Source: Baffinella frigidus
Lineage: Eukaryota; Cryptophyceae; Cryptomonadales; Baffinellaceae
Reading direction: 5' to 3'
DNA: 21,474 bases
Assembly (NCBI GenBank): GCA_026770585.1
Contig: MU646774.1
Coordinates: 285,628-307,101, forward strand
Shown here one piece after another: positions 820 through 21,474 of the stretch (positions within the stretch are counted from its first letter, which is position 1; every line of letters begins with the position of its first letter). A program made the translations under genes and the position numbers. Under the pieces are notes generated by a model. That model was not told where the DNA came from. It made no database searches and saw nothing but the letters and a program-made list of their open reading frames with translations.

Positions 820-851
820 CGTTGTGTCGGTGCCGCAGCCGTCAAACTCCC
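820..851 (-). CDS. Possible exon: EFDGCGTDTT
   Basis: A 32-nt minus-strand island between CTAACCCAG| and |GTTAACCC. In phase 1 it reads EFDGCGTDTT and ends in phase 0, matching the next island. The function is unrecognised. Confidence 0.4.
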
Positions 852-1509: not shown

Positions 1510-1544
1510 AGAAAGAACAGCGTGGTCCCTTAGTGGGGGCACTC
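1510..1544 (-). CDS. ABCA exon 34: VPPLRDHAVLS
   Basis: Minus-strand exon of 35 nt, acceptor CTCACCCCAG|, donor |GTGAGG, phase 1 in and phase 0 out, encoding VPPLRDHAVLS after completing Gly. It resembles the PPxLLRVPRSVN segment ahead of the second helix in plant ABCA proteins. Good splice sites and matching phase support it, but the match is short. Confidence 0.62.
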
Positions 1545-4500
1545 CTGGGGTGAGGTGCAACACCCACAGAAGCACGTCGAGTTTAAGGATTGGGGTTGAG
1601 GCTTCAGGCAGCGTGCTAGACTGCGGCAAAAACAAGCAGTGGGGGTACGGAACGCGCGGTTGGTTTCCATTTTTGTTGTTTCATAGAAGAAATCAGAGGA
1701 GAACTTACTATGGCATAGGAAATTGTACGTATGAATCCTAATTAAATCAAGCACCCCCCTCAACGATCCTGGGGGGTTACCTGGCACCCCGTTTGCCACG
1801 ACTCCTGCGGTACGGAACGCGCGTAGGGCACGTTCCGCCCCCCCGCCCCCCCCCCCGCGCGCGCTCTCTCTCTCTCTCTCTCTCTCCCTCCCTCTCTCGC
1901 GCTCTCTCTCTCTCCCTCTCTCTCCCTCTCCCTCGTACCTGGGATCCCGTTGGCCACGACTTCTGCGATCGCCGCTTCGAATGCCACCCCCAAACCAGGT
2001 CGTCCAAGCTCATCGGACCCCTTCATAGATTCTATCTCAGAAACTGTCCATCTAAACTATTTCTGGTACACATCGAAGGGTTTTAAAACTCGAAATGTAT
2101 AGAATGGCTCCACGCCCCACTGAAATCTGAGATATAATCTATGGACAGACGCGATGAAATGCATGCGCCATCGCTCTCCAGGTTCCACACCAGGGTTTTT
2201 TGAAATTAAATTATCTATTTAAAATCGCCAAGTAGTACCTGTAAAGCATTCCTGGTAGGAAGTTAGGGGTTACCTGGGACCCCGTTTGCCACGACTTGTG
2301 CGATCGCCGCTTCGTATGCCGCCTGATGTTTCAGTCGACGTGTTGACTTAGGCTTCAGGGTTTAGGGTTCAGGAGTTAGGGTCTAGGGTTTAGGGTTTCT
2401 GGGGTCTGGTTTCTGGTTTCGAGTTTAAAGATGAGCGTTTCGGGTTTCTGGTTTCGGGTTTCTTGTTTCGGGTTTGCAGCCTGGTTTAGGGTTTTGGGTT
2501 TCGGGTGGGTTTAGGGTGGGTTTGGGGTTTCGGGTGATTTTCTGGTTTCGTGTTTCGACATTGGTATGCAGCCGAGCCGGGGTTTGGGATTCGTCTTTAG
2601 GGTGAGTTTAAGGTTTAGAGTGAGTTTAGGGTTTGGAGTGTAGAGTTTAGGGTTCAGGGTGAATTTTGGGGGTTAGGGTGAGTTTTGGATTTCGGGTTTC
2701 GGGTTTCTTGTTTGGGGATTGGTTTCGGATTTCGAGTTGCGGGTTGGGGTTGAAGTTTATGGATTGGGGTTTAGGGTTTACCTTGGTGTGCGCAGGGTTC
2801 GCGGTCCACACGTTAAATCCGGGAACGAAGGTGCCGTTGAAAAACGCCTGGTTGGGGTTTAGATTTTAGGGTTTAGGGATGCCAGAAACAATACAACTGC
2901 CGCCCTATCCTGCCAACCGACGCCCCATTCTGTCAACTGCCGCCCTATCCTGCCAACCGCCGCCATATCCTACCACCTGCCGCCCTGTCCTGCCAACCGC
3001 CGCCATATCCTACCAACTGCCGCCCTATCCTGCCAACCGCGGCCCTATCCTGCCAACCGCTGCCCTATCCTGCCAACCGCCGCCCTATCCTGTGCCAACT
3101 ACTGCCGTATCCTGCCAAATACCGCCCTGACCTGTGAGCCAGATTGGACGAACAGACGTTTGGCAGGGAAGGAAAGTGCCGTTGAAGAACTCAGGGGGGG
3201 GGTTCAAGGTTTTGGGTTCAGGGTTTGAATTGTATGGTTTAGGAGTTAGGTTTCAGGATTTGGGGTCCAGGGTAAAGGGTTTAGAGTTTAGGGTTCAGGG
3301 TTCAGGGTTGAGGGTTTAAGGTTTAGGGTTTAGGTTTTGGGGTTTGGGGTGTGGGGTTTAGGGTTTAGGGTTGAGGGTTTAGGGTTTGGAATTGAGGGTT
3401 CAGGGTTTAGGGTTCAGGGATTAGGGTTCAGGGTTTAGGGTTCAGGGTCTAGGATTCAGGGTTTAGGGTTCAGGATTTAGGGTTCAGGGTTTAGGGTTCA
3501 GGGCTTAGGGTTCAGGGTTTAGGGTTCAGGGTGTGGGGTGTATTGTTGACCTGGGAATAGTCCACACAGCACGGGTCGTTGGAGCCCTGGCTCAGGGTTG
3601 AGGGTTTGGGGTTTAGGATTTGGGGTTTGGAATTTGGGGGTGAGGGGTTAGGGCGAGGGGTTAGGGTTTGGTGTTTGGTGTTTGGTGTTTAGGGTTTAGG
3701 GTTTAGGGTTTAGGGTTTAGGGTTGAGGGTTTGGACTTTAGGGTTTATGGTTGAGGGTTTAGGGTGTAGGGTTTAGAGTTCAGGGTTTCCGGGTTGGGGG
3801 TTGAGGATTAGGGTTTGGGGCGAGACAACCTGTCCCTGCTGAATAAGTTTGCACATGGCTTCCTGATGCGTCCTGGTTTGGGGTTTGGGGTTTGGGATTT
3901 AGATTTTGGGGTTTAGGGTTTGGGGTTTGGGGTTTGGGGGTTGGGGTTTGGGGTTTGAGGTTTGGGGCTTGAGGCTTGGGGTTTTGGTTTAGGGTTTGTT
4001 GTTTGGTGTTTGGTGTTTGGAGTTTGGAGTTTGGTGTTTGGAGTTTGGTGTTTGGTGTTTGGGGTTTGGAGTTTGGGGTTCGGGGTTTTGGGTTTACAAG
4101 TCCGACATGATGAATTCAAGGCGGTTGGAATTTGGCGCCTGGTTTAGGGTTTAGTGTTTAGTGTTTATGGTTTATGGTTTTGTGTGTAGGGTTTTGGGCT
4201 CAGGATTTCGGGTTTAGCCGAACGGGGGCAGGATAGGGCGGCAGCTGGGCCTCGGGTTTAGGTTTTAGTGTTTGGGGGTTGGGTTTTGGAACTTGGGGTT
4301 TTGAGTTTAGGGTTGCGGTTTTCTGGTTTTGAGTTTACAGTTGAGGGGTAAATAATGGCCTTGATGGTGTATTAAAGGGTTTATGAAAGGGTCTGGTGGT
4401 TTTATTAAAGGGCGAATGAAAGGGCCTTGTGGGTTTATTCAAGGGCAGGTCAGAGGCAACGCAATGTTTTGGGCTGACGGACTATTCTCAAGTTGACAGT

Positions 4501-7500
4501 CTGGGTGTGTGGTACACATCCGTCAACTTTGGAGTGAAAAGGGACCGAGGCGACGCATCCGATCTTCGGGACGTTGAGCACTTGCCACGTGTAGAAGTTC
4601 ATCGACTTGGCCAACTGCTTGGGATTGGTAGGATAGGGCGTCAGTTGGGAGGATAGGGCGGCAGTTGGCGCAGAATAGGGCGTCAGTTGGCGCAGGATAG
4701 GGCGACGGTTGGCGCAGGATAGGGCGGCAGTTGGAAGGATAGTGCGTCAGTTGGGAGGATAGGGCGTCAGTTGGCGTAGGATAGGGCGGCAGTTGGCTGG
4801 CACAGGATAGGACGTCAGTTGGCACAGGATAGACAGGATAGGACGGTAGTTGACAGGATAGGGCGTCAGTTGGCACAGGATAGGGTGTCAGTTGGGAGGA
4901 TAGGGCGTCAGTTGGCACAGGACAGGGCGGCAGTTAGCGCAGGATAGGGCGGCAGTTGGCACAGGATAGGGCGTCAGTTGGCAGGATAGGGCGTCAGTTG
5001 GGAGGATAAGGCGGCGGTTGACCGTATCCGTGACGTCGTTGAGGGCGTCTGTCGCAGAGTCTTTGGTGTACATCTTGTCCGCGACCTTGCTGGTCAGCAC
5101 CTGTTCCGAAGCGGTTGTCATAAGTTGTCATACCGATCTTAAGTTGTCATACCGACCATACGTTGTCATAACGATCATAAGCTGTCATACCGATCATAAG
5201 TTGACATACCGATCATAAGTTGTCATACCGAAGCGCCGCCAGCAGTTCCGAGGCGGGCTCGTTTCTGTGAGGCGCATACACTGTTGTATCTCTCAAACTA
5301 AGGCGTAAGGGCCTATCTAGGACCTGTATCAAGAGTAATGAAGAAGAAGAAGAAGAAGAAGAAGAGAAAGAAGAAGAAGAACCGCCGACGGTGAAATTTA
5401 TTTATATATTTTATAATAAAATTATTTTCAAAATACGACGTGTTCCGGCTCGAGGTTCGGGTTTGGGGTTTGGGGGTTAGGGACAAGGTTTTAGGGTCTA
5501 GGGTTTAGGGTTTAGGGTGTAGAGTGTAGAGTGTAGAGTTGAGGGTTTGTTTTAAACCTGTTTAGGGTTGAGGGTTTGTTTTGAACCGTTTAGGGTCTGT
5601 TTTAAACCTTGGTGTGGATGCTGCTGAGAAGGCTACGCGTCGCCGTCTTCCCCGGATATCCGGGAGTAACGTGATCATTTCCAATACAAAATTGAAGACA
5701 CTCCAATTCCCGTTCAAAAGTGTTCCCTGTAGTGTTTTGAGTGGGAGGGGATACGTTCTGTACCAGGAGAGGACTGCACAATAGATCTCCAGACTAACAA
5801 AAGATGTCAAGTCTATCTTTTCTACAGACCCCACGCCAGGTCATACGTCGAAATTTCATTTTACTACACGATCTTCGAGAAAAGTTGATTCTACCCGGGA
5901 AACACGCCAAAGGTGTTGTGAATTGGAGCCCTTGCCCTGCGTAATTTTAAATATATATATACCAGGATAAGGTACGTTGACACTTTTAGCGCAAAAGAGT
6001 GTGTGTATAAAATCCCCCTCATAACCTGGCGTGGATACAATAGATGTATAGCCTATCTTGGTAGGGATGATTACCTGGGTAATCATCCATACCACGACAT
6101 TTTCACGGGCAGTCACCTTATCCTTGCCCGTGAAAATGACGGGGGTCTTCGATCTGAAGTCGGTGTGCGGGGTCTGCCGCATGTCCGGCTGCTTCGGCCT
6201 GAATACGGCGGTAGATGGCGCAGGATAGGGCGTCAGTTGGGTGGTTACGGCGGTAGTTGGCAGGATAGGGCGGTAGTTGGCAGGATACGGCGGTAATTGG
6301 CACAGGATAGGGCGTCGGTTGGCACCGGACAGGGCGGCAGTTGGCAGGATAGGGCGGCCGTTGGCAGGATAGGGCGGTAGTTGGCACAGGATAGGGCGGC
6401 AGTTGGCACAGGATAGGGCGGCAGTTGGCACAAGATAGGGCGGCAGTTGGCAAGATAGGACGTCAGTTGGAACGTGTAGGGTTTAGGGTTTAGGGTTTAG
6501 GGTTTAGGATTTAGGGTTTGGGGTTTAGTGTTGATGGTTTATGGTTTATGGTTTAGGGTTTAGAGTTTGAGGTTCACCCGATTGTGAAAGGGCAGAAGGC
6601 AAACTGGAAGCCAACCTGGTTTAGGGTTTGGGTCTTAGGGGTTAGGGTTTAGAGTTTGGGGTTTAGGGTTTAGGGTTTAGGGTTTAGGGTTAAGGGTGTG
6701 TGGTTTAGGGTTTAAGGTTTTAGGGTTAAGGGTTTATGGTTTAGGGTTTGGGGTTTAGGGTGCAGGGTTTAGGGTTTAGGGCTTGGTGGAAGCCAACCGA
6801 GTACTGCATCTGGAAGCATTCCGTGTTGCCTGGATTGGTTTAGGGTTTTGGGTTTAGGGTTTAGGGTGTAGGGTGTAGGGTTTAGGTTTAGGTTCAGGGT
6901 TTAGGGTTTAGGGTTTAGGTTGTAGGGTGTAGGGTGTAGGGTGTAGTGTTCAGGGTGTAGGGTTCGGTTCGTGTTGCCTGGTTAGGGTTTGGGCATTTTC
7001 TGGTTCATGGTGTTGGGGTCAGGTTAAGGGTTTAGGGTTTGGCGTTTAAGGTTGAGGGTGTAGGGTTTAGGGTTGATGAGTGAAGGTTGAGGGCTCAGGA
7101 AGTGCCTTTGCCGCCACATGTCTTCATTATCTTCTTGCACTCAATCCATGGGTCATCGTCGAATCTGGGTTGCGGTTTGGAGTTGAGTGTTTAGTGTTTA
7201 GTGTTGAGAATTGGGGGTTTATGGTTTATGGTTTAAAGTTTAGGGTTTAGGGTTCTGGGTTTGGAATTTAGGGTTCAGTGTTTAGTGTTTAGGGTTTAGG
7301 GTGGAAGAAGAATACAACCGACGCCCTGGCCTGCCAACCGACGCCCTATCCTGTGCCAACTGACGCCACATCATACCAACTGACGCCCTATCTTGTGCTA
7401 CCTGACGCCCTATCCTGCCAACTGACGCCCTATCCTGTGCCAACTGACGCCCTATCCTGCCAACCACCGCCCTATCCTGTGCCAACTGACGCCCTATCCT

Positions 7501-10500
7501 GCCAACTGCCGCCGTATCCTGTGCTAACTGACGCCCTATCCTGCCAACTGCTGCCCTATCTTGTGCCAACTGACGCCCTATCCTGCCAACTACCGCCCTA
7601 TCCTGTGCCAACTGACGCCCTATCCTGCCAACTACCGCCCTATCCTGTGCTAACTGACGCCCTATCCTGCCAACTGCCGCCCTATCCTGTGCTAACTGCC
7701 GCCCTATCCTGCCAACTGCCGCCCTATCCTGCCAACTGCCGCCCTATCCTCCCAACGGCCGCCCTATCCTGCCTACTGCCGCCCTATCCTCCCAACCGCC
7801 GCCCTATTCTGTGGCATCTCACTGTTCGATGACGGCCTGGCGCTGGAGGGCGCCGTCGACGGTGGAGTTATCGTAGAAGAAAAAGTCCGCGCAGTCCTGC
7901 CGTTTCGTACCAGCGCGTCCTTTTAGGTTGTAAATTAGTACGAGCACGTCCTTTTAGGTTGTGAATTAGTACCACGGGGTATTTTAAAACACTTTAATCG
8001 TGGTGGATTTGAGGGCGCGTTGTCGTGAAAGAAGAAGTCCGCGCAGTCCTGCACATGATAAAGCGATGGTGGGAAATGTTGGCCGTTTTTCGGTTTGCTG
8101 ATTTGCCGGTTTGCTCATTTCATTTGAATCAAAAGTAGACTAAAACCCTTTCAAAACGCACCGTTTCGAGAATTCTGGTACAAATGAAATGAGCAAACGG
8201 TCAAAGCAGCAACCCAAAAAGCGGCCAACAATTCCCACCATCGCTCTAGGGCGTCAGTTGGCGCAGGAAAGGGCGTCAGTTGGCAGGATAGGGCGTCAGT
8301 TGACAGGATAGGGCGTCAGTTGGCAGTGGATAGGGCGTCAGTTGGCACATGATAGGGCGTCATTTGGCATTATAGGGCGGGGATAGGGCATCAGTTGCCA
8401 GAGCTGGCAGCTGGATGTAGCTGTCTGCAAAGTCGTCTTTTCCTTGGGTCCGGCGAACGTATTCAAAAGTCACTTTGGTACCAGAAATTTCTGATATCCT
8501 TTGGAAATTGGCCGTTTCCCAGAACAAATAATAGAGGGACCCAGACCTGGCCGCTGCAGCAGATGTCTGCAAAGTCGGAACGGTTTGCAGGGATTCGGGG
8601 AGTGCGGCCAGTTCACACATTTTTACCACGGATCGGCCACTTTTGGGAAAACAATCATTGATTCCGGTGGCGAATTAACTTTTGGCAGGGAGACCTGGCC
8701 GCTGCAGTAGACGTCTGCAAAGTCGTCCTTGGGGCCACAGTACGGGCACCGCACGAAGTTCCTGTTTCGGGTAGGGACGTCAGTTGCCAGGACCCGTCTC
8801 GCAAGGCCAGAGGCAACACACGCTGCGATCAAACCTGAGTTCATTGACCCTTCACATCAGTCAACTAGAGGCTCGCGACCTGGCCCATGGCCGAGGCTCG
8901 CTACCTGTCTGACCGAGGCGCACGAAGTTCGTGTGTCGGGTGTCGGGGTTTGACTTTTGCAACCATCCACATTTGCAGGTACAGGGGTAGCTGCACCGTT
9001 TCCCGGGGAAACCTATTTTTCTTTCGTTTGATGACAATGAAAATTACTACACAATTCGTTCTTACTTGTAATGTTAAAGAATGTATGTAGTAATTTTCAT
9101 TGCCATCAAATGAGAGAAAAATAGGGTTCCCCAAATAAACCGCTCGGGCCTATCGCGCCCCAAGCGCTTTTGAAGGGCCAGCTCCTTATATCTGTGTGCT
9201 CCGTGTCCAGACCCACCTACCAGGCACGCCAGTATGGGCACCGCACAAAGTTCCTGTTTCGGGTTTCGGGTTTAGGGGTTCGGGTTTCGGGTTTCGGGTT
9301 TCGGGTTCCGGGTTCCGGGTTTGAGGTTTCGGGTTTCGGTTTTCGGTTTTTGGTTTTCGGGTTTCGGGTTTCGGGTTTCGGGTTCCGGGTTTCGGGTTTC
9401 GGGTTTCGGGTTCCGGGTTCGGCGGAGCTGGCTCCTCCACACGAGGATACCCAAGCACCCTTTTAAAATATCGATTGAAGGTGATATGTACGGAGTTGGT
9501 AACGTGTCCCAGAAAAAATTGGGGCGACACGTGACCAAACGTATGAAATTACCACACATTGGCTCACTTGTACAGCCCACCGGGTTTTAAAGAGGGTGCT
9601 TGATCAGCCTCGTGCGGCTCACTGGTTGAGGAAGAGGCTTTTGATTAAGAGCTGCAGAACCTGGTCTCCACACGAGGCTATCTTGTTCCCCTTTTTACAT
9701 GTTGGTTTTACGGTTTTGTGGGGAGTTGGTCACGTGTCGACCGGTTCAAGCGGTCGACACGTGACCAACCCAACAAAAAATTACTACACGACTGATAAAT
9801 TGTGATCTTTTGGATGTTCCAAAAGGGTGCTTGATTAGCCTAGAGTGGTGCACCGGTTGAGGAAGAGNNNNNNNNNNNNNNNNNNNNNNNNNNNNNNNNN
9901 NNNNNNNNNNNNNNNNGGGGGTTGGTGGTTTGGTGGTTTGGTGGTTTGGGGTTTGGGGTTTGGGGTGTGGGGTTTGGGGGTTAGGGTTTAGGGTTTAGGG
10001 TTGGGACCGTGCAGAAGAGCGGCACGAGGAGGAGGCAGCAGTTTGATGTCAATATTTGACATCAAATTTAGTTTGAGTGAAAACATTGGTTAGCAGTGCA
10101 TGTCCGCAAAGTCAGACGGGTTAGCAGGAATGCAGCAATTGCGGCCAGTTCACACATTTGTACCACGGATCGGCCACTTCTGGAAAAAACAATAATTGAT
10201 TCCGGTGGCAGATTCACTTTTGAGGACCGTGAGGAAGAGCGGCACGAGAAGGAGGCAGCAGTTTGCGGCACGCCGCTTCCCCTGGTTTTGGGTTTAGGGT
10301 TTAGGGTTTATGGTTTGGGGTTTGGGGTTTAGGGTTTAGGGTTTGGGGTTTAGGGTTTAGGGTTTGGGGTTTAGGGTTTGAGGGTTTGGGTTTTTGTTTT
10401 TGTTTTGTTTTTTTGTTTTGTTTAGGGTTTAGGGTTTAGGGTTTAGGGTTTAGTGTTTAGTGTTTAGTGTTTAGGGTTTAGTGTTTGAGGTTGAGGGTTT

Positions 10501-11414
10501 GGGGTTTAAGGTTTAGGGTTTAGGGTTTGGGGTTTGGGGTTGAGGATTGAGGGTTTGGGGTTGAAAGAATGCTCGGTCAGTGGGGAGGATCCTGAGGCCA
10601 GTTCAGGCATGAAACCTGTACACAAGATAGCATAAAAGAAGGGCAGATTCTGGTATGTTCCGAAATGAAATCAGGATCCGCTGCGCGTTAATCTGCGTAA
10701 ATGTATTGTAGAACTCGGGTTGGCTTGGATTTTTTCAGGGTCGGTTCGGGCGGAAATCTGACGAAAATGCGCCGCTCTGTGTCATCTTATGCATAAGATA
10801 GCATAAAACTTCATTTAAGCCAGCCATCTAACAGAATGATCTGAAATTTGGAATTGCCCGACTCCGACCCAAAATCTACGCCAACTTGAATTCTACAATA
10901 TTGATGAATTGCTTTCCGGTAACAAAAATTACTACTCAATCGGGTCAAACTAGTAATAGCAGAGCATTTGTGTAGTCAATTTTGTTGCTTCAAAAGCAAT
11001 TAATCAACACTTTACCGGCGTAGAGGATGGCAGCAGAAACCGGCTATAGGGCGTCTGTTGGCAGGATAGGGCGTCAGTTGGCAGGATAGGGCGGCAGTTG
11101 GTACAAGATAGGGCGTCAGTTGGCAGGATAGGGCGTCAGTTGGCACAGGATAGGGTGGCAGTTGAGACCTGAAACGTGAGGTTCTTCAGAACAGGACGTT
11201 GGACTGTGAGAAGAAATAGGTCTGCAAAAGTCGTCCTTGGGTCCGACAAACGTACTCAAACGTCAATTTGGTATCAACAATTCCCGACGTCTCTGTAAAA
11301 GTAACCGAATCCCAAAAAAAACAATAGATGGACCCATACCTGGCCTGAACCCTAAACCCTCAACCCTAAACCTCAAACTCTAAACTCTAAACCCTAAACC
11401 TCAAACTATAAACC

Positions 11415-11453
<39 letters not shown>

Positions 11454-14400
11454 ACACTAAACCTCAAACTATAAACCCTCAACCCTCAACACTAAACGCT
11501 CAAACCTCAACCTCAAACTATAAACCCTCAACCCTCAACCCTCAACCCTCAACCTCAAACTATATACCCTCAACCCTCAACCCTCACCCCTCATCCCTCA
11601 ACCTCAAACTATAAAACCTCAACCGTCAACCTCAAACTATAAACTATAAACCCTCAACCCTCAACCCCCGACCCTAAACCTCAAAGTATGAACCATCAAC
11701 CCTCAACCTCAAACTATAAACCGTAAAGACCTGGAACGTGAGGTTCTTGCGGAACAGGGCGTTGGATCTGGTTTGGGGTTTAGGGTTTAGGGTTTGGTGT
11801 TTGGTGTTTAGGGTTTAGGGTTTGGGGTTTTGGGGTTTAGGGTTTAAGTTTTAGGGTTTAGGGTTTACTGCGAGAAAAATGAGGTCTGCAGCTCTGCGAC
11901 GCGCCTGGTTTGGTGTTTGGTGTTTAGGGTTTAAGGTTTAGGGTTTAGGGTTTAGGGTTGAGGGTTGAGGGTTTAGGTTTCAGGGGTTTTGGTTGGTGGT
12001 TTGTGATTTGTGGTTTAGGGTTTAGGGTTTAGGGTTTAGGGTTTGGGGTTTAGGGTTTAGGGTTGAGGGTTTAGGGTTTGGGGTTTAACCAGCGATGGAG
12101 CTCTATGACCTCTCCTTCTGGCTCTCATGGTGTATGGGTTATGGTTTCGGTTTGGAGTTCAGGGTTTAGGGTTTAGGGTTTTTGGTTTAGGGTCTTTCAC
12201 CGGTTCACATCCTCCACAGACAGCTTCGCTTGTTGGCCTGCTTCAGGGTTCGAGGTTTAGGGTGGGGGGTTGAGGGTCTAGGGTCTAGGATTTGGGGTTT
12301 ACCGGTCTCGCTCGAAATCATCGTGTTGCCCTCTTTGACAATGACCTGAGGGTTTGGGTTTGGGGTTGAGGGTGTGGGGTTTAGGGTGTAGGGTTTAGGG
12401 TTTAGGGTTTAGGGTTTGGGGTGCAGGTTTTAGGGTTCAGGGTTTAAAGTTTAGAATTTAGGGTTTAGTGTTTATCTTAACCGTAGCTTCGAAGGTCTGC
12501 CGGCCGTAGAGACCAAAAACAAAAAACGAGTTGGGACGCCTATGAAATTCGGGATGAAGCTTAGCCATTTCTCTTGGCAGACGGTTCGATTCTCATCGGG
12601 TCCCCAAATACAATATCTTCTTGGGAACTCCGAACCTGGTACAAATTTTAAAACTCAGGGCTTTTTAAATCTTGAATTGGAGTTTTTAAATCCCGAATTT
12701 TATTATATTATTTGTACCAGAAGTTTGGAGTTTCCAAGAATATAATGTATTTGGGGACGTGACTAAATCCAAACCGTCTCCCGAGGGAAATGGCTCAATC
12801 TCCATCCTCGATTTGTCTGGGGTTGACCTTGACCGTAGCTTCGAAGGTTTCCCCTGGCGCCAGGCCTTCCGGGATAGTCACCTGGATCAGAACCGCGTCA
12901 GTTGGTTGGATAGGGCGGCAGTTGGCGCAGGATAGAGCGGTAATTGGCAGGATAGGGCGGCAGTATAGGGTGGTAGTTGGCAGGATAGGACGTCAGTTGA
13001 CAGGATAGGGCGGCAGTTGGCACAGGATAGGGTGGCAGTTGGTACAGGATAGGGCGTCAGTTGGCGGGATAGGGCGGCAATTGGCTGGATAGGGCGGCAG
13101 TTGGCACCGAATAGGGCGGCAGTTGGCAGGATAGGGCGGCAGTTGGGACCTGAAACTGCCGACTCTGAGCCGAAACTTCGACATTCTGGCCGGCCAAAGG
13201 CTCTAGCCTTTCGAAGTGGAGCAAATCGAGTTTCTGGCTTCAGCCATTTCCCCCCTAGAGCGGTTCAAAATCAAATAGAATGGCTCAAAAGACCGCCTGA
13301 AACCCAAGACGCTAAAATTAAGATTTGGTCCACCTGGAACTGCTGGCCGTCAGCCGAAACCTCGACATTTTGGCCGGCTTGGATGCCGTCAGGGCACGTC
13401 ACCTAGATTCGGGTTTGGGGGTTAGAGTTTAGGGGTTAGGGTTTAGGGTTTAGGGTTTAGGAGTTAGGGGTTAGGGTTTGGGGGTTAGGGTTAGGGGCTG
13501 AGAGGTTAGGGGTTAGGGGGTTAGGGGTGAGGGGTGAGGGGTGAGGGGTGAGGGGTGAGGGGTGAGGGGTTTAGGTTTTAGGGTTTAGGGTTTAGGGTTT
13601 AGGGTTTGGGGTTTAGGGCTTAGGGTTTGGGGTTTAGGGTTGAGGGTTGAGGGTTTGAGGATTTAGGGTTTAGGGTTTAGGGTTTAGGGTTTAGGGTTCA
13701 GGGTTTAGGGTTGAAGGTTTAGGGTGTAGGGTTTAGGGTTTAGGGTTTAGGGTTTAGGATTTAGAAGTTAGGGTTTAGGTTTTAGGGGTTAGGGTTTGGG
13801 GTTTAGACCGTTACGGTTTTGTCTTTCGTCTTCTTCTCCTGGTTTGGGGTGTAAATATTGGGTTTTAGGGTTTAGAGGTGAGGGTTTAGGTTTTGAGGAT
13901 TAGGGTTTAGGGTTTAGGGTTGAGGTTTTAGGGTATAGGGCGTGGGGTATGGGGTTTGGGGTTGAGGGTTTATGGTTTAGGATTTAGGGTTTAGGGTTTG
14001 GGGTTGAGGGTTTGGGGTTTAGGGTTTAGGGTTTGGGGTTTAGGGTTTGGGGTTTGTGGTTTGGGGTTTGAAGTTTGGGGTTTACGATTGTGGACACGGG
14101 CATCAGGCTCCCCTCTTTGTCCGTGCCCCACACCACCTGTCGAGGGTTTGGGGGTTAGGGTTTTGGGTTTTGGGTTTCGGGGTTTGCGGGTTAGGGGTTA
14201 GGGTTTATAGTTTTTAGTTTAGTTTGTAGTTTATAGTTTATAGTTTATAGTTTATAGTTTATAGTTTATAGTTTATAGTTTATAGTTTATAGTTTAGGGT
14301 TTGGGGGTGAGGGTTTAAGGGTTTAGGTTTTAAGGTTTAAGGTTTAGGGGATGTATATATTTGACCACATGCAAAGGATGATGGTTTTTAAAACGTGCTT

Positions 14401-17400
14401 GTAGCGGTTGAACTGAGGTTTGATTTGAAATACCTCCTTTACAGGTGGGCAAAAAAACCCCTTCCTAACCCCTAAACCCTTAACCGCCCGAATGTATATT
14501 CCAGGGGTGAGGAGGTCAGCACGTCTTCATTCCTACCCTGCATCACATCAAATAATGGCTCCAAAAACTACCCTGGATCGGGCTTTCCTCATGACAGTTG
14601 ACTTTTGATTAACCTCTTTCTCACACACCTCAACTGTCAACTTTTAGAATTGTTGGGACAGACCCAGGGTTGAGAGCAAGGGTTCCCGACGCAGCCCACA
14701 CAGCGGGCTACGAAGAGATTTTCGGGCGCTAAGAGCCCGAGTTTCCGTTACCTTATCCGTAGGAACCCCCCTATGTCCCTACGGGTTGCCCACTGTAGGG
14801 TCCTAGATCTTATCGCTTAGGGGTTATGCAAAATCCCTTCGAAGTCCGCTGTGTGGTAAGTTCATCTCGGAAGATAACTGAATCATTTCCTTTTCAAAAG
14901 GAGGTTGCATATGATAAATTATGCAGGGCATAGTGAATTTGATTAGGTATCCCAATTCAATGAAAACGCCGATTAGGGAACTGATTCAGTTATCTTTCGA
15001 GATGAAAGTTGGCTGACTTTTCCTAAGTTGACATGTGAGACCTGGAATGTGGTCCCGAGGAGGGAAGTCTGCCTCACTCGGCTTGACGGACTATTCTTAA
15101 GCCGACGTTCTCGGTTCGCGGTACAAATGTGTCAACTTTGGAGCGGGAGAGACCTGGAATGTGGTCCCGAGGAGGGAGGTCTCCCACTCTTCCTGCCCGA
15201 GTAGCACACCCACCTGTTGTAGAGTTTAGGGTTTGGGGTTTGGGGTTTGGGGTTTGGGGTTTGGGGTTTGGGGTTTGGGGTTTGGGGTTTGGGGTTTGAG
15301 GTTTAAGGTTTGGGGTTTAGGGTTTGGGGTTTGGGGTTTGGGGTTTAGGGTTTGGGGTCTAGGGTTTAGGGTTTAAGGTAAGGGTCCTGCAGCTTACGAG
15401 ACTGAGACACTTCCCCTCCTATTCTTAAGTTGACTACCATTCGTAAATTGACACGCCGGGTCCGAGGTGCAAATCCGTCAACTTTGGAGTGGGAAAGAGC
15501 CCCGGGCGAAGCAGATTGGTACCCCAATTAACGCCACAAGTCCTCATGCGTGAGTACCTTGCTTGAGCCGTTGATGATCAAACCCCATTGACCATCAATG
15601 GCTCAAGCAAAGGTGCCCACGCGTGAAGACCTTAAGGGGCTCACGCGTGAGACCTTTTTGCACGACAATAGGCTGGGAAAGACCTGCTCGTCGGTTTTGA
15701 GATGGACGATGGTAGTCTGGTTGGCTCCACTCCCCCGGATATCCGGGGGTAACGTGACCATTTTTAACACAAAGTTGAAGAAAAGGCTGGTTGAAAAGAA
15801 AAGGGTGGCAGGCTTGTGAGTGGACCTGCTCGCCGGTCTTGAGATGGACGATGGTGGTCTGGTTCGTGGCCTTCGCCTCGTCAGCCTCCGCCTGCTTTCG
15901 GCTTTCGGGTTTCGGGTTTGGGGGTTGGGTGTTAGGGGGCCAGGGTTCAGGGTCGGAGTCCTCCTCTCAGCTATGGCGTTTTCATTTAATTAGGAGGCCT
16001 AATTAAATTTACTATGCCCTTACTAATTTCTCCTATTCACCTCATACTAGAAAATCTGCTATGCAACCTCCTACTGAAAAGGAACTGATTCAGATGTCTT
16101 CCGATATTAGCATGGAGGTCTGGTTGGTGGCCTCCGCCTGGTTTGTGGTTTGTGGTTTGTGGTTTGTGGTTTGTGGTTTGGGGTTCAGGTTTCAGGTTTT
16201 AGGATTTAGGTTTCAGGGTTTGGGGTTTGGGGTGTGGGGTTTGGGGCTCGGGGCTCGGGGCTCGGGACTCGGGGCTCGGGGGTTGGGGTTTGGGGTTTAG
16301 GCCTCGTCTGCCTCCGCCTGCCCGTGTTTTTGCTATCTTGGGGTTAATTTTGTGCTATTTTACAGCTATGTCGAAGCAAAGATAGCAAAATCTGAGAATA
16401 TCCACTCTTAAGATAGCATAGAAGGTGGTTTAAATTGCATGGTCGCGCGCACTTGACACGGCAGCAGCGTACGTGGCAAGTGCAGTCTTCCCCGTGCCTT
16501 AGAGGCCACGACACTAGGAACACGCAAGGCAGTCACGACCGACCGTCTGGCTTCGGCGTCCGCGTGACCGGTCACGTGGGCGTTCACGAGCCTGCCGGCG
16601 GGGCTGTTCCACGAATCCGGTCAGGTCATCCGGAAGAACAGGCCCCACCCCAAACCCCTAAAACCCTAAAACCCTAAAACAGGGTAGGGTAGGGTAGGGT
16701 AAGGTAGGGTAGGGTGGGGTGGGGTGGGGTGGGGTGGGGTAGGGTGTTGTGTAGGGTAGGGTAGGGTAGGGTAAGGTAGGGCAGGGTGGGGTAGGGTAGG
16801 GTAGGGTTGGGTGTTGGGTAGGGTAGGGTAGGGTAAGGTTTTGGGTTGAGGGTTGAGGGTAAGCACCTTCTTGGCGATGGTGAGAAAGACGTCTTCGAGC
16901 GACGACATGCCCACCTAGGAGGGTTTTCGGTTCAGGATTTAGGGAGTTGATGGGTGTAGGGTTAGGGGGTTGCTGTATAGGGTGTAGGGTGTAAGGTTTA
17001 TGGCTTGGGGTAGGGTTTAGGGTGTAGAAGGTTTAGGGTGTAAGGGGTTGAGGGTTACGGGGTTGGAGGTCTGGGGTTTGGGTTAAGGATTAGGGCTTGG
17101 GGTTCAGGGCTTAGGGCTTAGAGTTTAGGGTTTAGGGTTAAGGGTTTAGGGTTTAGGGTTTTGGGTTGAGGGTGCAGGGTGCAGGGTGTAAGGTTTGGGG
17201 GTTAGGGATTCGACATCCCCACCTGGACGTCGACGATTATGTACCAAGAAAGGTCTAAACGAACCCCAATCCTCAACCCTATACTCTAAACCCTAGCACC
17301 TAACCCCCAAACCCTCGACCCTAAACCCTTCCGAAATGAGATTTCTTCCGAAATGAGATTGGGCTGTAATTGGATCGCATCTGGTTCTGTACCAAAAAAA

Positions 17401-20400
17401 GAGTGTACCACACCAGATTGATCGAGGGAACCCGACGCCTTGTCCACGCCAGATCTGGCGTCGTTGACTTGGGAATTCAAGGGTTTCCCCCAGAACGATG
17501 TCAAAAATGGATGTTTCGATCCCTCTGCGTGGTACAATGCATGTATAGCACTGCCCTGCCAGCCAGAACATTTCACCTCAAGTTCAAAGGCTTATCCTCG
17601 TGTTCATAGGATAACGGCTTGAAAACCGGGTGGTTAAGCCTACAGTATTGACTACGGTAGGCCGTAGGACCCCTAGGCCCATCTTTCTCGTAGGAGCCCC
17701 CCTTGGCCCCTACGACCTACCGTAGTCAATACCGTAGGCCCAACTGCCCGGTTTTCAGTCCGATACCCTATTAATAGATAGAAATGCCCTGCCGGCCAGA
17801 ACATTTCACCTCAAGTGAACTGGCTTATCCTTGGCAGTAATTTGTGGGCGAGCCTGCCACCGTGTCAGTCGTTTGACAGCGAGAAGATTCTCGCTGGCAG
17901 GGCAGTTGACGTAAGGTGAAGTTTCTGGCTGGTAGTGTACCACCCTGGAGGCAACTCATGGGCAAATCGATAGTTTCTTAAGCTAACTCCCATACAATTG
18001 CACTCGGAATCCGAGTGCATTTGTGGGAGATTGACTTGAAATTTTCCCCAGGGTTGCCTCTAGGGTGGTGTACCTGGACGTGGCTCACGTTTCCGAGGCG
18101 GGCCCGTTTCAGGACTCACGTTTCCGAGGCGGGCCCGTTTCAGGACTCACGTTTCCGAGGCGGGCCCGTTTCAGGACACATGTACACCCTCACCGGCCCG
18201 ACCCCCACACCCCCAACCCCAAACCCTCAACCCTAAACCCTCAGTCCCAAACCCCAAGTGAACCGTTGCTCCTCATGAAACACATGCTCGTAAATAACAA
18301 TCTGGGCGCCTCGTTCATCACAGTTAGAGTAGCTCACGTTTCCGAGGCGGGCCCGCTTCTGAAGGCTCATAGACTTTTGTATCACTCAACTCATGACCCA
18401 AGGGCCTCATTTAGGACCTGTATCGAGAGTAATAACGAACAAGAAGTAGTAGTAATGTGCGTCGCCCAAAAGCACTTGATCAAATAGTTTTACGGAGATT
18501 GCCACACAGTGGACTACGGACCTTTCATCAAACGTCAACTTAAGGGGACTCGGTTGGATCCCAATGGATCGGGTCAAGAAGCTCATCCGTAGATCGTTCC
18601 CATCTCCTCCAGAGTGAGGTGGGCGTGGCCTTGGATGTGAGTGTAATACAAAGCACCAAAGCACCAAAAAGCACGCTGTGGGTAAAAACGAAGAAGAAGA
18701 AGAAGAAGTACCTGGACGTCGACGATTCCGAGCTCGGCCGCGCGGGTGTCCTGCTTTCAGGTTTGGGGTGTGGAGTTTAGAGTTTAGAGTTAAGGGTTTG
18801 GGGATTGGAGTCTAGGGTCGAGTGTTTGGGGGTTGGGGTTTAGGGTTTAGGGTTTAGGGTTTAGGGTTTAGGGTTGAGGGTTGAGGGTTTGGAGTTTGTG
18901 GTTTAGGGTCGAGGGTTTGGGGTTTGGGGTTTAGGGTTTAGGGTTTGGCGTTTGTGGTTCAGGGTCGAGGGTTTGGGGTTTGGGGTTTGGAGTTTAGGGT
19001 TTAGGGTTCTGGGTTTAGAGTTAAGGGTTTGGAGTTTGTAGTTTAGGGTTGAGGGTTTTGGAATTAGGGTTGAGGGTTTAGGGTTTACCAGCTGAGCAAA
19101 GAGCCTCGAGAGTTTCTCATCCTCCGAGGCAGGAACCTGTGTTAGGGCTTGGAGTTTAGAGTTTAGTTTTGGGTAATAGGGTTTAGTGTTTAGGGTTCGA
19201 TGTTAAGGGTTTTGGGTTTAGGTTTAGGGGTTAGGTTTAGGGTTAAGGGTCCAGGTTTAGGGTTTAGGGTTCAGGGTTCAGGGTTGGGGTTCAGGGTTTA
19301 GGGTTTACGGTTTAGGATTTGTGGTTTAGGGTTTAGGGTTTAGGGTTAGGGTTCAGGTTTAGGGGTTGCGGTTTGGGGGTTAGGGTTTACGTTGAAGTGG
19401 ATGTGCGCCTTGGTCTCCTCCCTTTTGTTGGTGATACCAAACATGTCCTGGTTGCGCCGCGCTGCCGCAAGGTGCTGAGAGTGTAGCTGACGACGCGCAT
19501 CACACCCTCTCGCACACCCTCTCACACCCTCTCGCACACCCTCGAGGGTGTGATGCGCGTCGCCTTCCGCAGCAACTCCGCAGCCTCGACCTGGTGGGGG
19601 GTGTAGCTGACGACGCGCATCACACCCTCTCGCACACCCTCTCACACCCTCTCGCACACCCTCGAGGGTGTGATGCACGTCGTCAGCGGTGGGGGTAGTT
19701 GGGCGGCCCAAAATCCCGTCCCAACCCCCCCCCGTGGCAAATCCCCCCGTAGTGAAAACAACGCTGCGGTACTAATCTAGGACACGCCGCCGGACGTGAC
19801 CCTCTAGAACGGTCTCTTGGAGGTTGGGATTTACGTTGAAGTGGATGTACGCCTGGGTCTCCTCCTCTGGGGTAATTCCAAACATGTCCTGGTTTAGGGG
19901 TGTGTGTTGAGTGTTTAGGATCTAGGTTTAGGTTTTAGGGTTTAGGGTTTAGGGTTTAGGGTTTAGGGTTTAGGGTTTAGGGTTTAGAATTTAGGGTTTA
20001 GTGTTTGGGTTTGGGGAATATGGATTAGGGATTAGGGTTTAGGGTTTGGGGTTTCGGGTTTGGGGTTTTGGGTTTCGGGTCGAGGGTTTAGGGTTTAGGG
20101 TTTAGGGTGTACTTGGAACAGTTGCTTCACTGCCATGCACTCGGGGCCGTCGAGCCTGGTTCAGGGTTTAGGGTTTGGGGTTTAGGATTAAGGATTTGGG
20201 GTTTGGGGTTTAGGGTTTAGGGTTAAGGATTAAGGATTTGGGGTTTGGGATTTGGGGTTTGGGGTTTAGGATTTAGGGTTTAGGGTTGGGGGGTCAGTGT
20301 TTTGGGTTACGTTCAGGGTTTAGGATTGAGGGTTGCGGGTCTAGGGTCAAGAATCTAGGGTTCAGGGGCTTTAGGGTTTCAGGTCTAAGATCTTGGGTCT

Positions 20401-21369: not shown

Positions 21370-21371
21370 CT

Positions 21372-21474
21372 GAGTATTCGACACACCCGGGTGAGTGTTC
21401 GACACACCCATGTGAGTGTTAGACACACCCGGGTAAGTGTTAGACACACCCGGGTGAGTGTTCGACACACCCAT
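21372..21474 (+). repeat. 21-bp tandem repeat at right edge
   Basis: About five copies of TTCGACACACCCGGGTGAGTG with changes, in the intron upstream of exon 1 and cut by the window end. Confidence 0.92.

Follow-up and report, generated by a model that had tools for sequence, protein, structure and literature searches.

A candidate ABCA-type gene of about 35 predicted micro-exons with telomere-like repeats in its predicted introns in Baffinella frigidus

A 21,474-nucleotide stretch of cryptophyte DNA (Baffinella frigidus, contig MU646774.1, positions 285,628 to 307,101), which as a whole is called the window here, is likely to hold an ABCA-type gene of about 35 predicted micro-exons, whose predicted spliceosomal introns would have been gained through the successive insertion of telomere-like repeats, minisatellites and hairpins into exons. 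The gene was probably once less interrupted, the elements being inserted piece by piece. Coding islands with splice dinucleotides at their edges, an open frame running through them, a match to ABCA proteins in exons 1–7, an orientation rule for the telomere-like arrays, remnants of uninterrupted junctions and copies of exons inside introns are all seen directly, and from these we infer splicing itself. The scope is one gene in one window, studied through its sequence alone.

On the minus strand, from position 21369 down to 820, 36 exon strings are located, each exactly once, with lengths of 29–82 nt and a median of 48 nt. AG precedes all 36, and GT follows 35 of them, with GC in its place after exon 23 (7106). 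Two of the islands, 4a and 4b, are copies of one duplicated exon, and joining the 35 exons that remain when one of this pair is used gives 1731 nt, or 577 codons, without a single stop; frames +1 and +2 of the same joined exons contain 14 and 12 stops. The earlier note, made from the letters of the window, had described at least 34 minus-strand micro-exons of 24–82 nt with AG acceptors and GT (once GC) donors, joined without a frame break into about 560 codons at a coding density under 10%, and this description is borne out, the measured density being 8.1–8.3%. Its lower limit at 1510 fits an alternative last exon (1544–1510, with AG and GT), while the present model uses 820–851. The candidate gene continues past both ends of the window. 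Since the exon list was made by hand, with splice sites, phase and known ABCA features as guides, the splice dinucleotides and the open frame were partly chosen; the independent checks on the chain are the codon-position signal, the guided alignment and the junction remnants. Least certain in the predicted model are the junction between exons 15 and 16, and exons 27 and 35. The exons, all predicted from an AG acceptor, a GT or GC donor and a kept frame, are as follows.

Exon 1: 21309–21369, minus strand, 61 nt; encodes AKGRLRCLGTSVRLKNRFGA(G), in the region that follows the first nucleotide-binding domain; spliced alignment recovers the 3′ end.
Exon 2: 20550–20586, minus strand, 37 nt; 5′ end recovered by spliced alignment.
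Exon 3: 20113–20155, minus strand, 43 nt; absent from the spliced-alignment path.
Exon 4a: 19835–19888, minus strand, 54 nt; first copy of the duplicated exon; absent from the spliced-alignment path.
Exon 4b: 19391–19447, minus strand, 57 nt; second copy; 3′ end recovered by spliced alignment.
Exon 5: 19089–19136, minus strand, 48 nt; VPASEDEKLSRLFAQL; recovered exactly by spliced alignment.
Exon 6: 18712–18750, minus strand, 39 nt; DTRAAELGIVDVQ; recovered exactly by spliced alignment.
Exon 7: 16867–16914, minus strand, 48 nt; VGMSSLEDVFLTIAKK; 5′ end recovered by spliced alignment.
Exon 8: 15826–15891, minus strand, 66 nt.
Exon 9: 15154–15213, minus strand, 60 nt.
Exon 10: 14086–14136, minus strand, 51 nt.
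Exon 11: 13809–13838, minus strand, 30 nt.
Exon 12: 13334–13402, minus strand, 69 nt.
Exon 13: 12834–12881, minus strand, 48 nt.
Exon 14: 12303–12345, minus strand, 43 nt.
Exon 15: 12209–12237, minus strand, 29 nt; 3′ end picked to hold the frame, less certain.
Exon 16: 12090–12121, minus strand, 32 nt; 5′ end picked to hold the frame, less certain.
Exon 17: 11869–11904, minus strand, 36 nt; junction with exon 18 found joined in a remnant.
Exon 18: 11731–11767, minus strand, 37 nt; (Q)SNALFRKNLTFQ.
Exon 19: 10228–10281, minus strand, 54 nt; hydrophobic.
Exon 20: 9623–9660, minus strand, 38 nt; assembly gap upstream.
Exon 21: 8695–8761, minus strand, 67 nt.
Exon 22: 7823–7896, minus strand, 74 nt.
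Exon 23: 7106–7164, minus strand, 59 nt; the sole GC donor.
Exon 24: 6798–6829, minus strand, 32 nt.
Exon 25: 6578–6615, minus strand, 38 nt.
Exon 26: 6117–6198, minus strand, 82 nt.
Exon 27: 5608–5646, minus strand, 39 nt; less certain.
Exon 28: 5023–5100, minus strand, 78 nt.
Exon 29: 4546–4617, minus strand, 72 nt; acceptor of the NAGNAG type.
Exon 30: 4098–4138, minus strand, 41 nt.
Exon 31: 3830–3872, minus strand, 43 nt.
Exon 32: 3551–3586, minus strand, 36 nt.
Exon 33: 2782–2847, minus strand, 66 nt.
Exon 34: 2274–2322, minus strand, 49 nt.
Exon 35: 820–851, minus strand, 32 nt; tentative, with the alternative at 1544–1510.

Several local features accompany these exons. A tandem 21-nt repeat (TGAGTGTTCGACACACCCGGG) lies directly upstream of exon 1, at 21371–21472. 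Exons 12 and 13 (13334–13402 and 12834–12881) encode a repeated motif, VTCPDGIQAGQNVEV...VTIPEGLAPGETFEAT, which may resemble the VPxGxxPGxxF motifs of algal proteins. The assembly gap upstream of exon 20 consists of 49 N at 9868–9916 and may hide a better copy of that exon. At 6100–6136, sequence close to the end of exon 26 (TTTTCACGGGCA) recurs inverted just inside the intron, which puts the donor in a hairpin loop. Exons 4a and 4b are 86% identical over 76 nt, have the same phase and keep intact splice sites in both copies, making them candidates for mutually exclusive use, or for inclusion of both in frame. Between the two lies a 76-nt direct repeat (19607–19682 and 19487–19562, spacing 44 nt) whose copies are 99% identical, the highest identity of the 24 direct-repeat rows; it is perhaps the youngest duplication.

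The frame was chosen without reference to third-position G+C, and this signal is strong. In the joined exons G+C at codon positions 1, 2 and 3 is 0.56, 0.41 and 0.79, and the third position strictly exceeds both others in 29 of the 36 exons (p 8e-9) and, among the 27 exons numbered 9–35, in 21 (p 3e-6). The commonest donor is GTAAAC (8 of 36 exons) and the commonest acceptor AACCAG (11 of 36). As the earlier note foresaw, repeat-derived open frames are abundant, with 59 stop-to-stop frames of at least 80 aa in the window; one of 179 aa (7293–7832) sits over a 42-nt tandem array. A 20–22-nt minisatellite (CAACTGACGCCCTATCCTGTGC) at 7315–7813 and 6203–6470 is open on both strands, and a gene finder could report it.

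For the guided check, three ABCA segments of solved structures were used in a spliced alignment that allowed any AG and GT (or GC after AG). The minus strand scores 85.0 and the plus strand 31.7, while the two reversed strands reach 29.0 and 30.0. Shuffling the window in 3-mer blocks gives a mean of 29.4 and a maximum of 37.2 over 60 shuffles, and in 50-mer blocks a mean of 43.6 and a maximum of 59.8, again over 60; once all exons are masked, the minus strand falls to 26.3. Traced over 21474–15475, the path reproduces both borders of exons 5 and 6 and, for exons 1, 2, 4b and 7, one of the two ends; in the poorly conserved middle another 79-nt segment replaces exons 3 and 4a. A codon-only chain search run at three entry penalties also places the minus strand (65.9, 37.8 and 20.1) above the best controls (29.0, 13.5 and 9.2), with a weak overlap of just 12, 9 and 5 of the 36 exons. 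Against Rfam the window yields no family at its gathering score, the region 19390–20600 has no megablast match among plasmids, and exact searches of the viral and genome contig collections with a 27-nt minisatellite word find nothing.

Compared with solved structures, the joined protein matches human ABCA3 best (E 5.1e-18, residues 1–113), with further matches to ABCA1 (about 1.5e-11), ABCA7 (2.9e-10) and ABCA4 (2.8e-7). The matches at E ≤ 0.01 comprise 13 distinct sequences, all of them ABCA proteins and all within residues 1–116. This ABCA-matching part corresponds to the 110 codons of exons 1–7 plus the opening codons of exon 8; it follows a nucleotide-binding domain, in the R domain region, and ends in MSSLEDVFLTIAKK. 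The +1-frame control has no match among solved structures (PDB), and neither shifted frame has a Pfam match at E ≤ 1. A profile search, proposed earlier as a check, does bring up ABCA11_C (7.5e-5, residues 103–138) and R1_ABCA1 (0.0014), both below their gathering scores, and eight unrelated Pfam families match the joined protein more weakly (0.011–0.15, MG2 at 0.011 among them). Starting at about residue 117, no match above cut-off supports the homology, and beyond residue 138 no ABC family in Pfam and no ABC solved structure is matched. Residues 245–577 searched alone give no Pfam family at E ≤ 1, and the 79-aa stretch of exons 15–21 finds no ABC transporter among solved structures, its one match being unrelated (E 0.37). 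The joined protein has no relative in the viral contig collection. Of the roughly 560 codons assigned to an ABCA transporter in the earlier note, the assignment stands for about 113, those matched to ABCA3; for the exons beyond the matching part, we infer coding from the open frame and third-position G+C. The residues after the start of exon 8 would presumably fit the known ABCA architecture, with a linker, a hydrophobic stretch (exon 19) and a long cysteine-bearing part, and exon 19 is likely the start of the second transmembrane domain. The two nucleotide-binding domains are expected to fall outside the window, upstream of 21369 and downstream of 1.

When 4b is counted as an exon, the model has 35 predicted introns of 65–1797 nt. 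Telomere-like repeats make up 37.5% of their bases with the C-rich strand (CCCTAAA) in sense and 3.6% in the opposite orientation, TTTAGGG being assumed as the organism's telomere unit, and the 20–22-nt minisatellite adds 9.1% and 4.4% in its two orientations. The picture of exons hidden between telomere-like repeats, from which the study started, is thus right for part of the intron DNA, but at least 45% of intron bases are by subtraction neither telomere-like nor minisatellite. The telomere-like arrays follow a strong orientation rule. The window contains 36 C-strand blocks (7600 nt) and 4 G-strand blocks (561 nt; n = 40 in all), a ratio on which no probability is put as the blocks are not independent events. 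Over the 35 introns, telomere-like flanks at the donor are 15 C-strand to 1 G-strand, and at the acceptor 21 to 0, while random 14-mers pass the same flank test in 1% (C) and 0.03% (G) of cases. Introns 2, 3, 10, 11, 17 and 30 are telomere-like from donor to acceptor. Examples of these intron classes are the following.

Intron 17: 11768–11868, minus strand, 101 nt; wholly telomere-like with the C-rich strand in sense.
Largest of the four opposite-orientation telomere-like blocks: 11341–11731, no strand assigned; in intron 18.
Minisatellite of 20–22 nt: 4626–5022, no strand assigned; 98% of intron 28.

The sequence GTAAAC is near the donor consensus and CTAAAC near the branch-site consensus. 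With such donor- and branch-like motifs in its C strand, a C-strand array placed beside a G already comes close to being an intron, unlike the opposite strand. C-strand arrays probably survive through already resembling an intron. The orientation rule could instead reflect a regional strand bias, the window being without intergenic DNA.

Searching the joined exons against the window gives seven junction-crossing rows outside the exons, five of which reach at most about 8 nt across and were not counted. Uninterrupted remnants are thus found at 2 of the 35 junctions, both within the same gene, and they are listed here together with the one intron that has a clear direct repeat at its splice sites.

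Remnant of exons 17 and 18, joined without an intron: 11168–11226, minus strand; inside intron 18, 60 nt, 85%.
Remnant of the end of exon 6 and the start of exon 7: 17211–17238, minus strand; inside intron 6, 28 nt, 96%.
Intron 24: 6616–6797, minus strand; telomere-like; an 11-nt direct repeat stands on either side and contains the donor GT.

The match of the first remnant extends four bases into intron 18, so this segment is not a copy of spliced RNA and looks like old genomic DNA. Telomere-like DNA follows the second and continues as far as exon 7, where 11 of the same 12 nt recur, a layout that suggests a 12-nt target duplication. Both remnants probably preserve the junction as it was before the telomere-like insertion. 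Splice-site repeats over the 35 introns have a mean of 3.1 nt against 2.7 nt in shuffled sequence (P 0.004), much of this being AG|G, and outside intron 24 the matches of 3–8 nt are hard to separate from AG|G. In the 35 of 36 C-strand telomere-like blocks that were tested there is no general target-site duplication (mean 6.4 versus 6.8 shuffled, the shuffled values being inflated by flanks that neighbouring blocks share), nor is there one at the minisatellite blocks (n = 8).

Copies of exons inside the introns form a second kind of record. Requiring E ≤ 1e-3 and a match of 15 or more exon bases leaves 20 rows at 19 places, the pair 4a/4b being listed twice, and all 20 are on the same strand as their exon. 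Copies of exon tails lie downstream in 11 cases out of 11 and copies of heads upstream in 4 out of 4; one middle copy lies upstream, and the other four rows are whole copies (exons 18 and 34, and the pair 4a/4b). With the exception of that pair, every copy sits in a neighbouring intron. The weaker matches (E 0.001–0.05) include non-neighbouring ones, of which many are telomere-like, and a single exception to the tail and head rule: the intron before exon 20 holds a copy of that exon's tail (E 0.003). One intron holds three more copies of exon 34 or its tail, at 1936–1988, 1773–1809 and 1385–1414 (91–93%). The DNA between an exon and its copy is minisatellite for exons 1 and 33 (73% and 78%), and for exon 13 a hairpin fills nearly the whole insert. 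The inserted and dispersed elements include the following.

Hairpin (inverted-repeat) element: 12545–12814, no strand assigned; intron 13, between the exon 13 tail and its copy, with 26-nt flanking direct repeats.
Hairpin element: 17603–17774, no strand assigned; intron 6, with 54-nt flanking direct repeats.
Insert of 70 nt: 15079–15148, no strand assigned; between the exon 9 tail and its copy, overlapping a segment with relatives in introns 8 and 29.
Dispersed element: 20849–20960, no strand assigned; intron 1, 85% identical to 10927–11038 in intron 18.

Further inverted-repeat hairpins lie at 9005–9132 and 8059–8248. After masking of telomere-like and minisatellite DNA, repeats that connect different introns account for 10 of the 24 direct rows and 2 of the 11 inverted rows. 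Two segments, 10093–10222 in intron 19 and 11220–11287 in intron 18, carry scraps of exon 21 together with intron DNA also found beside exon 21, which suggests that DNA may have been copied from intron to intron. A 52-nt segment (87%) is common to intron 8 (15730–15781) and intron 26 (5647–5698) and ends near a GGATATCC palindrome; its copy in intron 26 ends right at the acceptor of exon 27.

Hairpins and segments common to several introns would also be left by introner-type gain, in which miniature transposons with terminal inverted repeats become introns and the arrays later grow inside them by slippage. Such introners are known in diverse eukaryotes, algae included (PMC9860276), and direct repeats flank 2 of the 7 hairpin elements tested here. 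We nevertheless regard this origin as unlikely: the six introns listed above are telomere-like from end to end, intron 17 occupies a junction that is uninterrupted in a remnant, and the flanking repeats of 54 and 26 nt exceed the 3–9 bp given in the available text of PMC9860276. It is quite improbable that the locus is a decaying pseudogene overrun by repeats. Repeat DNA is plentiful, partial exon copies are many and the gene model is a prediction, all of which such a reading would accommodate, but 577 codons run without a stop or frame break and with strong third-position G+C.

Tandem duplication of exon segments bearing AG|GT, with repeats accumulating later between the copies, would account for copies that adjoin their exon on the same strand at 19 distinct places; in its favour, too, 14 of the 35 exons before an intron end in AG and 30 of the 35 after one start with G. 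Yet the copies do not lie at the start of the next exon, so that splicing as predicted does not connect one copy with the other, and some inserts that separate copies coincide in part with dispersed segments or hairpins; as a general origin of these introns, the model is very improbable. Tiny coding islands amid repeat DNA, with a few direct repeats at their boundaries (11 nt at intron 24, and the small excess in mean length), recall ciliate-like germline DNA, where the islands would be gene segments and the repeats DNA cut from the genome, but this idea is far-fetched given GT or GC and AG at every boundary (though the islands were picked with these in mind), and pointer repeats of eliminated DNA were rejected, as at least 6 nt are shared at only 3 of 35 boundaries against 1.4 expected, with no general pointer.

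The insertion of repeat elements into exons thus remains the preferred reading, and a mechanism can be proposed for it. A telomere-like array would enter an exon, likely during the repair of a double-strand break, either added by telomerase or captured as telomeric DNA. If its C-rich strand is in sense, the array could be spliced out at once: a G beside TAAACCC would give a GTAAAC donor, CTAAAC every 7 nt would offer a possible branch site, and a terminal AACCAG would serve as acceptor. Arrays in the other orientation, lacking those signals, would be lost or stay buried. In a second process, hairpin and minisatellite insertions would duplicate about 18–76 nt around exon–intron junctions, and a duplication would be tolerated only if one complete exon kept both its splice sites. 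A survival filter of this kind would leave tail copies downstream and head copies upstream, and in one case would have let an entire spare exon (4a/4b) arise. More tentatively, and as no better than a possibility, telomerase may itself have been the intron maker, with telomere repeats capping or filling broken exons and each repair event with the C strand in sense giving a working intron. If so, the genes of this lineage would have been shredded into micro-exons by break repair.

Many new introns come without a visible source; here a likely one can be named, and most linear chromosomes carry it. Four findings go beyond what the earlier note had seen, namely the orientation rule, the exon-end copies in introns, the intron-less junction remnants and the duplicated exon 4a/4b, and the copies of exon junctions inside introns record an order of insertion that is rarely visible. 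If the proposed model is true, a by-product of repair would explain both extreme intron density and micro-exons, and would show why gene finders miss such genes. It predicts that, gene after gene, telomere-like arrays at splice sites will be C-rich in sense.

Several known systems resemble parts of this pattern. Like introners, the elements described here would form introns from inserted DNA, with inverted repeats, segments common to several introns and, in intron 24, a donor GT inside a duplicated target. Unlike introners, for which the available text reports target duplications of 3–9 bp (PMC9860276), telomere-like arrays are the commonest kind of intron DNA here, mainly without duplication, and the duplications that do exist measure 11–76 nt. 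The chlorarachniophyte Amorphochlora amoebiformis is likewise rich in introns, including introns of simple repeats: the accessible part of its description gives 16.5 introns per gene and a telomere unit of TAACCC, and, of 26 lineage-specific introns, half carry [AT]n repeats and nine have AG|GN insertion sites (PMC12730881). In contrast with those AT-type repeats and that unit, the present gene has the CCCTAAA unit and about 34 introns in 577 codons. Amorphochlora was set aside as a source of the gene for its telomere unit, and Symbiodiniaceae for their share of GC or GA donors, 25–74%, a share that is under 3% in Amoebophrya (PMC11453091); Cymbomonas tetramitiformis was less favoured as a source, given a mean of 7.4 introns in its core genes (PMC5741210). 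Interstitial telomeric sequences share with our arrays the presence of internal telomere-type repeats, introduced at a break with no change or with deletion, addition or duplication, the last being found in 6 of 130 rodent and 4 of 25 primate cases according to the portion of that study available (PMC2246262). Those insertions are described in rodent and primate genomes, whereas the arrays here lie inside coding sequence, reach the splice sites and obey a strong orientation rule. The insertion pattern resembles telomeric insertions at breaks more closely than transposon insertions. Among the matches listed from the open-licence literature, titles and abstract openings describe no introns made of telomere-like repeats. 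Intron gain by break repair, in which foreign DNA in an exon becomes an intron and sometimes leaves short direct repeats, is treated together with the tandem-duplication model in a review (PMC3443670) whose available text has 0 occurrences of “telomer”; the telomere-like class seen here fits break-repair gain in outline.
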